Source: Leadbettera azotonutricia ZAS-9
GTDB taxonomy: Bacteria > Spirochaetota > Spirochaetia > Treponematales > Breznakiellaceae
Direction of reading: 5' to 3'
Length of the DNA stretch: 64,000 nt
Assembly (NCBI RefSeq): GCF_000214355.1
Contig: NC_015577.1
Span: 744,001 to 808,000, forward strand
The position numbers and the translations under genes were made by a program. The notes beneath the pieces are model-generated. The model made no database searches, was not told where the DNA came from, and saw nothing but the letters and a program-made list of their open reading frames with translations. Below are positions 15,639 to 23,220 of the stretch, piece after piece. Numbering within the stretch: position 1 is the stretch's first letter; the number at the start of each line of letters is the position of its first letter.

Positions 15639-16532
15639 ATGAATATCCTTGATTTGGTGGGGAATACTCCTCTTTTGGAATTAAGAAAAATCCCTCATGC
15701 CGGAGCACAGCTTTTTGCCAAAGCCGAATTCTGCAATCCCTCAGGCTCTGTTAAGGACAGGGCCGCCAAAGCCATGATACTTGACGGTATCAAGCAGGGC
15801 AGTCTCAAGCCGGGCAAGATCATCATCGATGCGACTTCCGGCAATACGGGCATAGCCTATGCCATGATGGGCGCTTATTTGGGATATCCCGTGAAGCTTT
15901 ACCTTCCGGCAAATGCCAGCAATGAGCGGAAGGGGCTTATGAGACGCTACAATGCTCAAATTGTTGAGACAGATCCCCTGGAAAGTTCCGATGGCGCCCT
16001 CCTTGCGGCCCGGAAAGAAGTCGAACAGAATCCCGAAAAATACTTTTACCCTAATCAATACGCCAACGATGAAAACTGGAAGGCCCATTACAATGGAACA
16101 GCCCTGGAAATTTGGGAGCAATCAAATCACCGGATAACCCATTTCATTTGCGGCATGGGAACTTCCGGAACTTTCACAGGCTGCGCCAGACGACTTAAAG
16201 AACTTAACCCGAATGTAAAGGTGATAGCGGTGCAGCCCGATTCCCCCTTCCACGGCATCGAGGGGACCAAGCACATGGCGAGTACCATCAGACCTGAGTT
16301 TTATGATGAGCGCCTGCCCGACGAATTTATCGAGGTGAATACCGAGGAGTCCTACGCCCTGGCAAGGCAGCTTGCCGCAGTGGAGGGCCTTTTCGTCGGG
16401 GTAAGCTCCGCAGCCAATGTGCTCGCTGCCCTTCACCTCGCGGAGAAGCTTCCCCCCGATGCAGTGGTGGTTACCATCCTCTGCGACGGCGGCATCAGGT
16501 ATCTTTCAGATCCTTTCTGGGAAACAGCATGA
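15639..16532 (+). CDS. cysM: Cysteine synthase, CysM-type
   Basis: 297 residues. PLP fold-type II synthase that adds a sulfur donor to the aminoacrylate from O-acetylserine (or O-phosphoserine). The PLP lysine is K39 in NPSGSVKDRAAK. The substrate loop TSGNTGIAYA and the phosphate-binding GMGTSGTFTG are intact. Shorter and distinct from the second synthase at 26504-27481. Its stop overlaps the JAMM peptidase start by 4 bp, and a ThiS-like carrier and an E1-like enzyme follow. That context points to use of a protein thiocarboxylate as sulfur donor, as for Mycobacterium CysM with CysO. Donor specificity is inference. Confidence 0.9.
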   Translation: MNILDLVGNTPLLELRKIPHAGAQLFAKAEFCNPSGSVKDRAAKAMILDGIKQGSLKPGKIIIDATSGNTGIAYAMMGAYLGYPVKLYLPANASNERKGLMRRYNAQIVETDPLESSDGALLAARKEVEQNPEKYFYPNQYANDENWKAHYNGTALEIWEQSNHRITHFICGMGTSGTFTGCARRLKELNPNVKVIAVQPDSPFHGIEGTKHMASTIRPEFYDERLPDEFIEVNTEESYALARQLAAVEGLFVGVSSAANVLAALHLAEKLPPDAVVVTILCDGGIRYLSDPFWETA

Positions 16533-16954
16533 TCAGGCTCAGCGCCGAATGTGAAGCCCTTGTCAGGAGGGAAGGGGAGAGGGCCTTCCCCAACGAATGC
16601 TGCGGCGTTCTTTTGGGTCCGCTGCTTGATGGTGATGGCCGGCAAGTGGAAGCTGTCCTCCCCATAGAGAACAACCGCGAAGCTGAAGAGCAGTACCATC
16701 GTTTCAGGATCGAGGCCGAAGATTTGATGAGGGCCGAAAAAGAAGCCCGCAAGCAGAACCGCGAAGTGCTGGGTTTTTACCATTCCCACCCGGATCATCC
16801 GGCGCGGCCTTCGGAGTACGATCGTGAGTTTGCATTGCCCTTTTATTCGTATATAATACTTGGAGTCGAAGGCGGCCGTGCGGCGGAACTGACAAGCTGG
16901 CGGCTCACCGAAGACAGGTCGGTTTTTAACAAGGAGGAGTTGCTATGCCGGTAA
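16529..16954 (+). CDS. JAMM/M67 family metallopeptidase (Mec-like)
   Basis: 141 residues. The zinc-peptidase signature is complete: an early Glu in the NECCGVLLG stretch, H85 and H87 in HSHPDH, then S95 and D98 in PSEYD. In Mycobacterium the homologue Mec frees cysteine from the CysO-cysteine adduct; in other bacteria such enzymes trim the tail of ThiS-like carriers to expose Gly-Gly. Both roles fit here, because the adjacent carrier ends GG-IQG. Start overlaps cysM by 4 bp, and its end overlaps the carrier gene by 10 bp. Confidence 0.9.
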   Translation: MIRLSAECEALVRREGERAFPNECCGVLLGPLLDGDGRQVEAVLPIENNREAEEQYHRFRIEAEDLMRAEKEARKQNREVLGFYHSHPDHPARPSEYDREFALPFYSYIILGVEGGRAAELTSWRLTEDRSVFNKEELLCR

Positions 16955-17223
16955 TACAAATACCCACCGCATTGAGAAGCTTTACAGAGAGGAAATCCGA
17001 AATCACCGTTGCAGGTGCTACTGTAGGGGAAGCAATCGCCAAATTGGCAGAGGCTTATCCCGATATAAAGCAGCATTTGTACCAGGGCGCAGAATTGCGC
17101 TCGTTCATCAATGTTTTTGTGGGAGAGACAAATATCAAAAAAATGCAGGCCCTGGATACGCCGGTCAAGGATGATGATACTATCATGCTGGTCCCGGCCA
17201 TTGCGGGCGGCATCCAAGGATAG
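16945..17223 (+). CDS. ThiS/MoaD-family sulfur carrier (CysO-like) with C-terminal extension
   Basis: 92 residues, beta-grasp ubiquitin-like fold. The N-terminus IQIPTALRSF, the middle VFVGETNIKKMQAL and the end IMLVPAIAGG match CysO/MoaD carriers. Instead of ending at the Gly-Gly needed for adenylation, the protein continues with three residues, I90-Q91-G92 after G88-G89. That form needs proteolytic trimming before the E1 enzyme can act, and the JAMM peptidase encoded just upstream is the obvious candidate. A strong Shine-Dalgarno (AAGGAGG) lies within the preceding gene. Confidence 0.88.
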   Translation: MPVIQIPTALRSFTERKSEITVAGATVGEAIAKLAEAYPDIKQHLYQGAELRSFINVFVGETNIKKMQALDTPVKDDDTIMLVPAIAGGIQG

Positions 17224-17229
17224 AAGAGC

Positions 17230-18402
17230 ATGACTGACAGCGTAATTAAGGATCGGGAACTCACCGATCTTACCAATGCCGAGATCGGCCGTTACAGCCG
17301 CCACCTCCTCCTGCCTGAAGTGGGCATTGAGGGGCAGAAGCGGCTCAAGGCAGCGCGGGTGCTCCTTGTGGGAACCGGCGGGCTCGGCGCGCCTCTGGCC
17401 CTCTACCTTGCAGCAGCAGGCGTGGGCACTCTCGGCATCGTTGATTTTGATTTTGTGGAAGAATCCAATCTGCAGCGCCAGGTGATTCACGGAACACGCG
17501 ATGTGGGCCGCCCCAAGGTCGCCTCCGCCCAGGATCGCATTAAGAGCATTAATCCCTATATCAAGGTGAACACCTACAATACCATGCTCTCAAGCGCCAA
17601 TGCCCTGGATATCCTCAAAGATTACGATGTGGTAGCCGACGGCACCGACAACTACCAGACCCGCTACCTGGTGAATGACGCCTGCGTGCTTTTGGGCATC
17701 CCCAATGTGTATGGTTCGATTTTCCAGTTTGAAGGCCAGGCTTCGGTGTTTTACGCCAAGGAAGGCCCGTGTTACCGCTGCCTCTATCCCGAGCCTCCGC
17801 CTCCGGGGCTGGTTCCTTCCTGTGCCGAGGGCGGCGTTGTCGGGGTGCTCCCCGGCATCGTAGGAACCCTCCAGGCCAACGAAGTGATAAAGCTCATTGT
17901 GGGCGGCGGTGACAGCCTTGTGGGGCGGCTTCTCCTCTTCGATGCGTGGAAGCTCAAGTTCCGGGAACTCAAGCTTGATAAAGACCCCCATTGCCCCGTC
18001 TGCGGCAGTAATCCTACTATCCACGAGCTTATCGATTATGAGCAATTCTGCGGCCTCAAGAAAAATGAAGATGAAGTGCCGGTTGACACTATTACTGCGA
18101 AAGAACTAAAAGCGCGGTTTGATAATAACGAGCCCTTGCAGATCATCGATATACGCGAACCTCACGAGCGGGCCATTGTCAAATTCCCCAATGCCAAGGC
18201 AATCCCCCTGGGGCAGATGGTCCGCAGGATTGATGAATTCGATCCCGCCATTGACGCAGTGTTCATCTGCAAAATCGGGCAGCGCAGCGTATTCGCTATC
18301 CGGGCCCTGCGGGAAGCAGGATACAAGGGGCGGCTGTTCAATCTGAAAGACGGGGTCAATGCCTGGGCAAGAGACGTTGATGCATCTCTGCCCCAGTATT
18401 AG
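17230..18402 (+). CDS. E1-like adenylyltransferase/sulfurtransferase (MoeB-ThiF fold with rhodanese domain)
   Basis: 390 residues. The N-terminal ThiF/MoeB domain has the ATP-binding GTGGLGAPLALYLAAAGVG, the catalytic-loop cysteine C198 (VPSCAEGG) and a zinc Cys-x2-Cys (CPVCGS). The C-terminal rhodanese domain (from about residue 290) has its active cysteine C347 in FICKIGQRS. It should adenylate the Gly-Gly end of the neighbouring carrier and pass on sulfane sulfur to make the thiocarboxylate. The fusion resembles MoeZ/Uba4-type enzymes. Six bases separate it from the carrier gene; its stop overlaps the end of the convergent glycosidase gene by 4 bp. Confidence 0.92.
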   Translation: MTDSVIKDRELTDLTNAEIGRYSRHLLLPEVGIEGQKRLKAARVLLVGTGGLGAPLALYLAAAGVGTLGIVDFDFVEESNLQRQVIHGTRDVGRPKVASAQDRIKSINPYIKVNTYNTMLSSANALDILKDYDVVADGTDNYQTRYLVNDACVLLGIPNVYGSIFQFEGQASVFYAKEGPCYRCLYPEPPPPGLVPSCAEGGVVGVLPGIVGTLQANEVIKLIVGGGDSLVGRLLLFDAWKLKFRELKLDKDPHCPVCGSNPTIHELIDYEQFCGLKKNEDEVPVDTITAKELKARFDNNEPLQIIDIREPHERAIVKFPNAKAIPLGQMVRRIDEFDPAIDAVFICKIGQRSVFAIRALREAGYKGRLFNLKDGVNAWARDVDASLPQY

Positions 18403-19658
18403 TAAAGTTCGAAGGGCTGAAAATTTCCTTCCCAGGTGATAAAGACAGGGGTGCGGCCCAGCTTGATTGTGTCGTCTGTCAGCATCTCCTCTTTATCTGA
18501 GGCAATGTCGTGCATGATCGGCATGGCGTCGGGGATGGCAAGATGGACGGTGCGTTTTATGCCGGTGTTCCAGAGGATAAGCGCATTCCGGCCTTCGCCG
18601 CGAAAGAAAAGGCTGGTAACAGATTTGCTGATGTCCTTCCTTTCCGGGGCAGAAGGCATGTATGTTGTATTGGAAAGGTATTCACTGCAAAGTTTGTATG
18701 CAAAGGCCCCTTTCTTATAGGAAAAATCAGGGTAAACAATGCCGAAGAAGTTCTCGGAATCGAAATTTGAGGGCGCTTTTTTCTTGTTGTATTCATCAAA
18801 AAGCTCGTACCATATAATAGGATTCACTCCGCGCACCGCAAGGCCGGCTATGGTTTTTACAATATAAGCAGGATATTTGTCTTCGCTCACCCGTGTCGGG
18901 TACCAGCCGTGTGTCGGATACCCTACCTCGGTCACCCAAATCCCACCGCGGTAGTTGTAGTCTGCCAGAATGGCTGCCAGTTTTTCGTAAAGCCGCAGCG
19001 TATACCCGGGGCTGGCCGCGTAGGGGTGAAAAGAAACAGCATCCACATGTTCCATTGCGCCGGCTTCAAACATGCCCCGGATATATCGTTTCGGCGTGCG
19101 CCAGAACGCTGCGGATACGATTTTGGCTTCAGGATCAATATCCCTGATTCTCTGCGCGGCTGCCTTGGCAAGGGCAATGAAATGTTCGTCCGAGCCTTTC
19201 CAAAAGGTCAAGTTCGGCTCGTTCCAGATTTCCCATGCGTCAACCCTTCCCTTGTACCGCAAAACTGTCCTCTCAACATACTCCAGAAAATACGGCAGCT
19301 CTCTTTCTGTCAAATCCCGGTGCTCCTTGCGGTCATCGTACAAATACCCGTTGTCAAAACCGAGGGATATCATTATTTTTTTCCCCGCAGTTTTGCCGTT
19401 GTCGATATATTCGTCCCAATAGGAGTAATCCCACTTGCCGGGTTCCCTCTCGACACTGGTCCACCGGAGAGTCGTCCGTACCCATGCTGCGCCAAGCCCA
19501 TCCATCAGGATGCAATCCGCTTCCTCCAAAGAAGAGCCGTCCGGGGATATCCCCAGAAAGCCTGGCGAAATATGCTGTTCATTCTTTACGGAAAATGTTT
19601 TTGTCGCACATGAACAAAGCGCAAGGAATATGCATATAAAAAAGAAATAAGGTTTCAA
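18399..19658 (-). CDS. Lipoprotein glycoside hydrolase, clan GH-A type
   Basis: 419 residues. Lipoprotein signal with lipobox LALCSC at residues 12-17. The TIM-barrel domain has AWEIWNEPNLTFW, in which NEP carries the acid/base Glu of clan GH-A, and a later TEVGYPTHGW that could carry the nucleophile Glu. The closest general match is GH39/GH5-like bacterial proteins. It is probably anchored on the cell surface or in the periplasm. The substrate is unknown. Transcribed alone, divergent from the phosphodiesterase lipoprotein across a 56-bp gap. Confidence 0.8.
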   Translation of the reverse strand: MKPYFFFICIFLALCSCATKTFSVKNEQHISPGFLGISPDGSSLEEADCILMDGLGAAWVRTTLRWTSVEREPGKWDYSYWDEYIDNGKTAGKKIMISLGFDNGYLYDDRKEHRDLTERELPYFLEYVERTVLRYKGRVDAWEIWNEPNLTFWKGSDEHFIALAKAAAQRIRDIDPEAKIVSAAFWRTPKRYIRGMFEAGAMEHVDAVSFHPYAASPGYTLRLYEKLAAILADYNYRGGIWVTEVGYPTHGWYPTRVSEDKYPAYIVKTIAGLAVRGVNPIIWYELFDEYNKKKAPSNFDSENFFGIVYPDFSYKKGAFAYKLCSEYLSNTTYMPSAPERKDISKSVTSLFFRGEGRNALILWNTGIKRTVHLAIPDAMPIMHDIASDKEEMLTDDTIKLGRTPVFITWEGNFQPFELY

Positions 19659-19714
19659 TATAGTTTCCTTTATCCTTGATAATTTGAAAGATACTTCTTA
19701 TTATAGCAGAAAGT

Positions 19715-20638
19715 ATGAAAAAGAAAACGCTGTTCAGCCGGATATCCTGCGCAATGCTTCATGCAGTTTTGCTGACAACCTGCGCTTCGGTGCCGCGCAT
19801 TGCCGAAGACGAAAGCGCTATCCATGTTGTCCTTATCGGGCTTGACGCATGGGGAGCGTACAGCGTTCCCGGCGCAGACATACCGGTAATCAGGCAGATG
19901 ATGGCACATGGCGCATATACCCTTGAGGATCTCAGCGTCATGCCATCGGACAGCGCTCCCAACTGGATGTCCATGTTCTCGGGCGCAGATCCCGGCCTGC
20001 ATGGGTTTACCTCATGGAACTCAAAGGAGCCTGGCTTCCAGCCTGCCGCTGTAGACAGCCGTGCCTTTTTTCCGGGCATCTTCGGCCTTCTCCGGGATCA
20101 GAAGCCTGAAAGCACAATCGCCTACTTTTATGAATGGAGCGGCATGAAGTACCTGGTTCCAAAAGATGTGCCAAACCGCATGAAACTGGTTCCCCTTCTC
20201 TCCTATTGGAAACCCGGAGCAAATAAGATAGCCAGGTATATCAAGAAGCAAAAGCCCGGCTTTGCCTTCATCGGTTTTTATGGCACCGACATGACGGGCC
20301 ATAGCAAGGGCCACGACACGCCCGCGTATTACAAGAAGCTGTCCCAGATTGATGGCTATATCGGCATCATTGAGCAGGCAGTCAAGGATGCCGGCATCTA
20401 CGACAATACCATCTTTATCCTCACCGCAGATCATGGCGGGGTCGGCAAAGGCCACGGCGGCGAATCAATGCAGGAACGGCAGGTTCCCCTTATCCTATAC
20501 GGGAAGGGAATCAAGAAGGGATACGAGATTGTCGGGGAAGTGCACACCTACGACACTGCCTCGACCATTGCGAGAATCTTTGGCCTTGTTCAGCCTGATG
20601 TGTGGATCGGCAAGCCTGTGGAAGAGGCGTTTGAGTGA
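19715..20638 (+). CDS. Alkaline-phosphatase-superfamily phosphodiesterase (exported)
   Basis: 307 residues. N-terminal hydrophobic segment ending LLTTCAS (likely lipobox). The domain resembles type I phosphodiesterase/nucleotide pyrophosphatase: metal-ligand Asp in VVLIGLDAWGAYS, putative nucleophile Ser/Thr region SDSAPNWMSMFSG, GTDMTGHSKGHD, and LTADHGGVGKGHGG. It would act outside the cytoplasm on a phosphate ester. Encoded next to the divergent lipoprotein glycosidase, which suggests, without proof, a joint role on a surface glycan or polymer. Confidence 0.83.
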   Translation: MKKKTLFSRISCAMLHAVLLTTCASVPRIAEDESAIHVVLIGLDAWGAYSVPGADIPVIRQMMAHGAYTLEDLSVMPSDSAPNWMSMFSGADPGLHGFTSWNSKEPGFQPAAVDSRAFFPGIFGLLRDQKPESTIAYFYEWSGMKYLVPKDVPNRMKLVPLLSYWKPGANKIARYIKKQKPGFAFIGFYGTDMTGHSKGHDTPAYYKKLSQIDGYIGIIEQAVKDAGIYDNTIFILTADHGGVGKGHGGESMQERQVPLILYGKGIKKGYEIVGEVHTYDTASTIARIFGLVQPDVWIGKPVEEAFE

Positions 20639-20816: not shown

Positions 20817-21758
20817 ATGGCTGAAAAAACGATCAATGCGCTGGGAAAGGACGCGGCTTATCAACTGGCGAATGTTACCAAGACGCCGCCCCAGTACGGA
20901 GCCCTGACGCCCAAGTGGCTGACCAGGGTATTGGAATTCAAGGGCCTTGAAGCGGGCATTTACCGGGTGAACAAGGTGGTGGAAGGGGATACCCCCCTCG
21001 ATATCCTGTGCAGCCAGGACCCCAAAAAGGTTGATATTCCCCAGGGCTTCATCGATTACGAGGCCAAGCCCAGGGAGTACCGGCTTAATTCCATCAGTAC
21101 CATTATCAATGTGGATACCAAGGTCGCTGATGTGTACAGCGCCCCCTACGATCAGACCCAGGAGCAGATCTCTCTGGCCATCGAAAGCCTTAAAGAGAGG
21201 CAGGAGAGCCAGATCATCAATAATGATGATTATGGGCTTCTGAAAAACGTTGCTGATTCCCAGCGTATTCAAACCCGGGCAGGGCGTCCTATGCCCGACG
21301 ATCTTGATGAGCTTATCACCAAGGTGTGGAAAGATCCGTCCTTCTTCCTCGCCCACCCCCGGGCTGTTGCGGCTTTTGAGCGTGAATGCACACGCCGGGG
21401 TGTGCCGCCTGTAACGGTGAATATCGGCGGCGGGACTTTCATCGCATGGCGGGGCATCCCCATTATCCCCACGGACAAGCTTTTTGTGGACGGCCTTAAA
21501 AACCCAAAAGGGAAAGGCGGCAAAACCAATATCCTTCTGGTTCGCACCGGAGAAGCCAAGCGGGGTGTTATCGGCCTGTATCAGGCGAATGTGCCCGGCG
21601 AGCAGTCCAGGGGGCTTTCTGTCCGGTTCAGGGGCATTGACGATTCAGGCGTTGCCTCCTATCTCCTTTCGGTTTACTGCTCCGCCGCAATCCTCGCCGA
21701 TGACGCTCTAGCGGTATTGGAAGATGTGGAAGTCGGTGACTACTATGATTACACCTAG
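20817..21758 (+). CDS. srpI: Family 2A encapsulin shell protein (SrpI-like)
   Basis: 313 residues. It aligns by eye along its whole length with SrpI of Synechococcus elongatus, the family 2A encapsulin: LANVTKTPPQYGALTPKWL, EAGIYRVNKVV, IESLKERQESQIIN, DDLDELITKVWKDPSFF, RRGVPPVTVNIGGG, ILLVRTGE, LSVRFRGI and DDALAVLEDVEVGDYYDY all have counterparts. Family 2 shells share the HK97 phage capsid fold, and 2A members assemble closed icosahedral cages around a cysteine desulfurase. The desulfurase is encoded immediately downstream with overlapping ends. No cyclic-nucleotide-binding insertion is seen, which excludes family 2B. Older annotations call such proteins major membrane protein or sulfur-starvation protein. 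Confidence 0.95.
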   Translation: MAEKTINALGKDAAYQLANVTKTPPQYGALTPKWLTRVLEFKGLEAGIYRVNKVVEGDTPLDILCSQDPKKVDIPQGFIDYEAKPREYRLNSISTIINVDTKVADVYSAPYDQTQEQISLAIESLKERQESQIINNDDYGLLKNVADSQRIQTRAGRPMPDDLDELITKVWKDPSFFLAHPRAVAAFERECTRRGVPPVTVNIGGGTFIAWRGIPIIPTDKLFVDGLKNPKGKGGKTNILLVRTGEAKRGVIGLYQANVPGEQSRGLSVRFRGIDDSGVASYLLSVYCSAAILADDALAVLEDVEVGDYYDYT

Positions 21759-23220
21759 CAGTTATGCCGGGAATGCAAACCCTGCGGACTGGGGGCTTCC
21801 CTCTGCTGCCGAGATTGCTGCCCTGGCTTCGGCTTATTTCCCGGAATTTGCCGCACCGGTGAGCGTGCCGGGGGCTGGCAGTATTGCTGCGCCTTCTTAC
21901 TCGCCGTCGGTGCTGTCAACAAAGGATGCTGAAGCTTATAAGACCGCTGCGCATTCCGCATACACTGTTCCTGACAGCAATGCTGCGCATCATGGTTATG
22001 CTGTCGGATCGAGAAGCCTTGAATCCATACGCGGCGATTTCCCCATTCTCTCAGAAAAAATAAACGGCCGTGATCTGGTCTGGCTTGACAACGCAGCCAC
22101 CACCCAGCGTCCCCGGCAGGTGATAGACCGGCTTGTGCACTATTACGAACACGAGAATTCCAATGTCCACCGGGGCGCCCATGAGCTGGCTGCCCGGTCA
22201 ACCGATGCCTACGAGGACGCCCGAAAGAAGACAGCCGGTTTCCTCGGCGCCCCTTCACCGGACAATATCGTCTTTGTGCGGGGAACCACCGAGGGGATTA
22301 ATCTTGCGGCCCAGGCTTATGTCAAACAGTACTTAAAGCCCGGGGACGAGATCATCCTTACCCTTTTGGAGCACCACGCCAATATAGTGCCCTGGCAGCT
22401 TATTGCCGAGGAAACAGGCGCGGTGTTGCGGGTGGCTCCCATCGACAAGACAGGGCAGATCATTCTTTCAGAGTACACGAAGCTTTTTAACAGCAGGACC
22501 CGTTTTGTGTCCGCAACCCAGGTGTCCAACGCATTGGGAACGGTCGCGCCTGTAGCGGAAATGATACAGATCGCCCATGCCCATGGCGTGCGGATTTTAA
22601 TAGACGGCGCCCAGTCGGTGTCCCATATGCCTGTCAATGTTTCTGCCCTGGATGTGGATCTCTTTGTGTTTTCGGGCCATAAGATCTTCGGCCCCACAGG
22701 AATCGGCGCGCTCTACGCAAAAACCGATGTCCTTGAAGCTGCCCGGCCTTACCACGGCGGCGGCAACATGATTGCGGATGTTACTTTTGAGCGTACCCTT
22801 TACCAGCCTCCTCCCGCAAAGTTTGAAGCCGGAACCGGGAATATCGCCGATGCAGTAGGTCTTGGGGCTGCCCTTGATTATGTGAGCGCCATCGGCATGG
22901 AAAACATCGCCGCCTGGGAGCATACCCTGGTGCAGTACGGCATGGCGGAACTTGCCAAAGTGCCGGGGCTGCATCTTGTCGGGACTGCGCTGAATAAGGC
23001 AAGTGTCCTTTCCTTTGTCCTTGACGGGCACGAAACGGAAGATGTCGGCAAATACCTTAACACCAAGGGCATTGCTGTCCGTGCGGGCCATCACTGCGCC
23101 CAGCCTGTGCTTAGGAGCTTCGGCCTTGAAGGAACAGTGCGGCCTTCCCTGGCGTTTTACAATACTCCGGAAGAGATTGACGCACTGGTAAGGGCGCTGT
23201 TTGAACTGGTCAGGAGATAG
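21745..23220 (+). CDS. SufS-type cysteine desulfurase with encapsulin-targeting N-terminal extension
   Basis: 491 residues from ATG 21745, chosen because GGTGA precedes it by 5 bp; the in-frame ATG 21724 has no spaced Shine-Dalgarno. Residues 1 to about 91 are rich in A, S, P, G and Y and look disordered (for example GAGSIAAPSYSPSVLSTKDA). The SufS-like core then starts at LESIRGDFPIL. PLP lysine K313 (FSGHKIFGP) and persulfide cysteine C451 (RAGHHCAQP) are both present. It releases sulfur from cysteine as an enzyme persulfide. Known family 2A cargo desulfurases carry such an N-terminal extension that tethers them inside the shell. Overlaps the encapsulin gene by 14 bp. Confidence 0.94.
   Translation: MITPSSYAGNANPADWGLPSAAEIAALASAYFPEFAAPVSVPGAGSIAAPSYSPSVLSTKDAEAYKTAAHSAYTVPDSNAAHHGYAVGSRSLESIRGDFPILSEKINGRDLVWLDNAATTQRPRQVIDRLVHYYEHENSNVHRGAHELAARSTDAYEDARKKTAGFLGAPSPDNIVFVRGTTEGINLAAQAYVKQYLKPGDEIILTLLEHHANIVPWQLIAEETGAVLRVAPIDKTGQIILSEYTKLFNSRTRFVSATQVSNALGTVAPVAEMIQIAHAHGVRILIDGAQSVSHMPVNVSALDVDLFVFSGHKIFGPTGIGALYAKTDVLEAARPYHGGGNMIADVTFERTLYQPPPAKFEAGTGNIADAVGLGAALDYVSAIGMENIAAWEHTLVQYGMAELAKVPGLHLVGTALNKASVLSFVLDGHETEDVGKYLNTKGIAVRAGHHCAQPVLRSFGLEGTVRPSLAFYNTPEEIDALVRALFELVRR

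Follow-up and report, generated by a model that had tools for sequence, protein, structure and literature searches.

The first 95 residues of a cysteine desulfurase encoded by Leadbettera azotonutricia ZAS-9 are very likely the cargo-loading domain of a family 2A encapsulin system, and its second conserved motif is YSPSVLS rather than the canonical AASPYYFLDG. In the mechanism that we propose, shell and desulfurase would be translated from overlapping genes, the 60-subunit shell would assemble, and its inner surface would bind the disordered tail, probably close to the three-fold axis, so that the desulfurase becomes trapped inside. A predicted helix, GLPSAAEIAALASAYFPEF (motif 1), would provide the main docking contact; YSPSVLS, kept some 45 residues ahead of the enzyme core, would make a second contact instead of AASPYYFLDG; and the remainder of the extension would act as a flexible linker. 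We infer that either motif touches the shell, and likewise where docking takes place and how the motifs share the work. Both the loading role of such an extension and its first motif have been described before. We tentatively propose, as a reading that could well prove right or wrong, that in a large family 2A lineage, found mainly in gut and rumen, AASPYYFLDG gave way to the unrelated [YF][SA]PxV[LVI][SP] with its spacing from the enzyme unchanged, which would give one encapsulin family a second, possibly orthogonal loading code. No description of this swap was found in the literature searched, the coverage of which was incomplete; a 2024 study of how family 2A encapsulins store elemental sulfur may describe related motifs. 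The short motifs that load family 2 encapsulins are only partly worked out, and the Synechococcus tail that has been tested is long. With both conserved motifs in 95 residues, the window tail offers a minimal version provided by nature. Should the second motif truly dock, sulfur-handling compartments could be loaded by means of a new tag, and the case would show how a cargo-shell recognition pair changes in evolution. The shell lineage concerned is widespread among gut and rumen anaerobes, and we found no study of its physiology there. The features of the locus, which lies in the 64,000-nucleotide stretch that was analysed (the window; contig NC_015577.1, positions 744,001 to 808,000), are collected in Table 1.

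Table 1. Features of the shell-desulfurase locus, in window positions (NTD, N-terminal domain).
Feature	Position	Strand	Evidence
Family 2A encapsulin shell protein	20817..21758	+	NF041162 489 bits (cut-off 380), PF19307; closest solved shells 8t6r, SrpI 6x8m
Shell stop region overlapping the desulfurase start, 14 bases; ATG inside YYDYT codons	21745..21758	+	sequence; exactly -14 in 82/148 relatives
N-terminal extension, 95 aa, very likely cargo-loading	21745..22029	+	low AlphaFold2 confidence outside motif-1 helix; conserved motifs
Motif 1, GLPSAAEIAALASAYFPEF, predicted helix, very probable LARLANEFFS homologue	21793..21849	+	91/111 NTDs; leave-one-out p=0.0002
Second motif APSYSPSVLSTK (residues 49-60), core YSPSVLS, apparently in place of AASPYYFLDG	21889..21924	+	78/111 NTDs; leave-one-out p=0.0002; 1/22 canonical or intermediate NTDs
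Conserved pre-core junction GYAVGSRSLESI (residues 84-95)	21994..22029	+	motif in 74/111 NTDs
SufS-type cysteine desulfurase core	22030..23217	+	TIGR01979, PF00266; invariant Lys313, Cys451 (56-sequence alignment)
Catalytic cysteine codon, Cys451, RAGHHCAQP	23095..23097	+	invariant in 56 aligned relatives

The shell gene lies directly upstream of the desulfurase gene on the same strand, and its 313-residue product aligns end to end to NF041162 and has no cNMP-binding insert. Its closest solved relative by sequence, 8t6r, is what we take to be the Acinetobacter baumannii family 2A desulfurase encapsulin shell. No family 1 encapsulin was found in the genome. The AlphaFold2 model of the window shell was poor (mean pLDDT 57) and was not used. 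The desulfurase ORF (21745-23220, plus strand) has a SufS-type core that matches TIGR01979 with 531 bits from residue 94 onwards, as well as PF00266. Against NF041166, an NCBIfam model with a full-length threshold above 800, it scores 795.6 bits, with model positions 212-622 covered by the core and the N-terminal 211 positions left unaligned to the shorter tail.

The first-pass annotation had described an Ala/Ser/Pro/Tyr-rich, disordered-looking extension of about 91 residues, foreign to ordinary SufS, as a cargo-loading peptide, and this description agrees well with our results. The 95 residues contain 22 Ala, 15 Ser, 9 Pro and 6 Tyr, and taken alone have no family match in Pfam or NCBIfam. 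In the AlphaFold2 model of the desulfurase (input alignment of 50 relatives, with rows from the window and the genome loci only), pLDDT falls below 50 at residues 1-8, 38-57 and 69-74, and the core is mostly above 90; a helix at residues 21-31 lies within the main segment of moderate confidence in the tail, and confidence is low around YSPSVLS. Three other class-V desulfurase-like ORFs in the same genome encode only 384-407 aa, which leaves no room for an extension, and no second copy of the tail was found in the genome. The two strings quoted earlier as recurring patterns, GAGSIAAPSYSPS and HSAYTVPDSNAAHHGY, do not recur, as no word of 4 residues or more repeats within the extension. The first of them holds part of the conserved YSPSVLS, but the second is mostly unconserved linker, and only its last residues reach the conserved pre-core VGxRSLxxI.

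In order to examine conservation, we gathered family 2A loci from Spirochaetota genomes, other genomes and plasmids, and extracted 148 desulfurases encoded downstream of a shell gene, with tails of about 30 up to more than 320 residues. A search for motifs in 111 non-redundant NTDs, under a zero-or-one-occurrence model and with shuffled sets as control, returned motif 1 (ELAaLAnayFPE, score 1800), the pre-core junction motif VGxKSLxxI (score 1493) and the YSPxVLS motif (aYsPvVlpkd, score 1123), compared with scores of 208-214 for the shuffled sets. When the window sequence was left out of the matrix, its motif 1 and its YSP motif each still scored above all 5000 shuffles. The discovered motif-1 site in the window tail is EIAALASAYFPE (residues 23-34); this motif, the strongest, had been overlooked in the first-pass annotation. 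A hydrophobic-moment calculation on the motif-1 helix was unremarkable and did not single it out, and in a motif scan of the other window proteins none scored near the desulfurase.

The desulfurase start overlaps the shell gene in some form in 128 of the 148 relatives, and by exactly the same 14 bases in 82 of them; because of this agreement, the start at 21745 is likely the right one. The overlap also suggests translational coupling. Read in another frame, the codons of YYDYT, the conserved shell C-terminus, contain the start of the desulfurase (TATGATTACACCTAG), and therefore the first residues, M[IT]T, are largely set by the shell gene across the clade. It might be argued that the extension is an unconstrained low-complexity tail, or the product of a wrongly chosen start, with no role in loading; it is indeed unconserved over most of its length, matches no database family and is missing in two relatives. 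We regard this as highly improbable, given that two motifs are kept across phyla far above the shuffled controls, that the overlap with the shell gene is conserved, and that the homologous domain of Synechococcus was established as a loading domain by experiment (PMC8049743).

In that system, Nichols et al. (PMC8049743) found the N-terminal domain to be both necessary and sufficient for cargo loading, described two motifs, LARLANEFFS and AASPYYFLDG, in most family 2A desulfurases, and placed the cargo density on the three-fold axis of the shell, close to SrpI residues F262 and Y273, which are kept as F271 and Y282 in the window shell. A survey by Andreas and Giessen (PMC8346489) covers 1281 family 2A operons in 12 phyla, with desulfurases as putative cargo. 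The window locus shares with Synechococcus elongatus CyD and SrpI the shell family, a SufS-like cargo, a disordered Ala/Pro/Ser-rich NTD, the shell-cargo gene order and the motif-1 segment. It differs in having a tail of 95 instead of 225 residues, one strong copy of motif 1 instead of two degenerate ones, YSPSVLS where Synechococcus has FYFID (AASPYYFLDG consensus) at an equivalent distance from the core, and shell and cargo genes that overlap. The Acinetobacter baumannii cargo (L151) resembles the window cargo in having TIARLANEFFSA, but its tail of about 260 residues, more than twice the length of the window tail, carries two YFL motifs, whereas the window tail has none of this type. A matrix built from motif 1 of the gut clade only recovers LARLANEFF-type sites in 17 of the 22 canonical or intermediate NTDs; for this reason, the window motif 1 and the published LARLANEFFS are very probably homologous. 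This homology to a motif of a tested loading domain, together with the adjacent family 2A shell and the predicted disorder, argues well for a loading function of the extension.

A long N-terminal extension is also present in family 2B encapsulin systems with desulfurase cargo (PMC12407261; spirochaete locus L008), whose shells carry the cNMP-binding insert that the window shell lacks. The desulfurase encoded downstream of a two-shell family 2B system (L008, L010) in a less closely related spirochaete (G179) has a tail that begins NTIARLASRIYNEVPGA, resembling motif 1. Motif 1 may be older than the split between families 2A and 2B.

The second motif behaves differently from the first. No AASPYYFLDG or YFL-type motif was matched in the window tail, where YSPSVLS is found instead, and the YSPxVLS matrix (consensus [YF][SA]PxV[LVI][SP]) matched only one of the 22 canonical or intermediate NTDs. 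In the canonical clade, which includes Cyanobacteria, Pseudomonadota and Acidobacteriota among others, the tails have segments such as YFLD or FSFLE, of the kind seen in AASPYYFLDG. The two second motifs are practically mutually exclusive, with no tail containing both beyond single ambiguous matches. The median distance to the core is 46 residues for the last canonical motif and 45 for YSPxVLS, and the linker between motifs 1 and 2 varies from 2 to 181 residues. By these distances, YSPSVLS replaces AASPYYFLDG at the equivalent position before the core.

This roughly constant distance is also compatible with a different role, in which loading depends on motif 1 alone and YSPxVLS either lies against the desulfurase dimer or brings in a sulfur acceptor, for which the MoeZ rhodanese and the CysO-like protein encoded nearby would be examples. 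The Synechococcus fragment with the second motif alone failed to load cargo (PMC8049743), and in 61 of 72 clade loci the shell gene directly follows a MoeZ-type gene, which makes contact with an acceptor conceivable. We nevertheless consider this role rather doubtful. First, AlphaFold2 does not place YSPxVLS with confidence on its own core (block-mean pLDDT about 46-57). Second, the motif sits where the published second motif does. Third, some clade members without YSPxVLS retain the MoeZ gene, and an acceptor outside the shell would not easily reach an encapsulated tail. A second contact with the shell thus remains our preferred reading of YSPxVLS.

The distribution of the new motif was mapped on a maximum-likelihood shell tree, obtained by a quick search with SH-aLRT support only. 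All tails of the new type fall in one clade of 97 shells (83 with the motif and 14 without), and all canonical tails fall outside it (SH-aLRT 99), so that the swap maps to one well-supported branch. The first-pass annotation had spoken of a spirochaetal shell, a label too narrow for a clade that spans Spirochaetota, Bacillota, Fibrobacterota, Synergistota, desulfovibrios (Desulfobacterota), Planctomycetota and others, several of its records being metagenome bins whose names are possibly wrong. According to the record titles, many of them come from the rumen and other animal guts. The phylum spread suggests horizontal transfer. One spirochaete bin (G562) contains two family 2A shell-desulfurase loci (L041 and L053). 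The shell and tail of Aliarcobacter cibarius plasmid pACIB (L014) are intermediate between the clades, with motif 1 present and neither second motif found; the plasmid holds an entire CysM-JAMM-CysO-MoeZ-shell-desulfurase cluster, interrupted by IS elements.

It is also worth considering an extension of the loading model, with which it is in no contradiction, namely that shell and tail co-evolved, an altered docking site accepting YSPxVLS and rejecting YFLD-type tails. SrpI site 263 corresponds to R272 in the window shell, beside pocket residue F271. It is occupied by Arg or Lys in 82 of the 83 shells paired with a cargo of the new type; the 18 shells whose cargo carries only the canonical motif all have Met or Thr there. 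However, the changes in shell site and tail motif both lie on a single branch and count as one event, and therefore this covariation is not independent evidence. Moreover, five other shell sites segregate about equally, adjacent strand residues usually point in opposite ways, one shell (L016) has Met together with the new motif, and clade members without the motif still have Arg. Such co-evolution at this site is, in our opinion, unlikely.

The extension is conserved among the encapsulin-linked desulfurases that we compared, with two divergent exceptions. These relatives (L138 and L141) lie beside very divergent family 2A shells and have only 31 and 37 aa before the core; motif 1 is absent from every ORF of both loci. 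Being nearly extension-free, they imply that the extension is not universal among family 2A-linked desulfurases. They represent either natural tests of the requirement for an extension or shells with lost or changed cargo.

Upstream of the shell gene, on the same strand (15639-18402), the window contains a cassette encoding CysM, a JAMM protease (Mec+-like), a CysO/ThiS-like carrier and MoeZ (adenylyltransferase plus rhodanese). The recurrence of a MoeZ-type gene immediately upstream of the shell in the 61 of 72 clade loci suggests that cysteine synthesis by the protein-thiocarboxylate route draws on sulfur that the encapsulin stores or releases; no literature linking an encapsulin to this cassette was found in our search. 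Unlike in most relatives, two unrelated-looking ORFs, one glycosidase-like on the minus strand and one phosphodiesterase/sulfatase-like, lie between MoeZ and the shell gene in the window (18399-20638).
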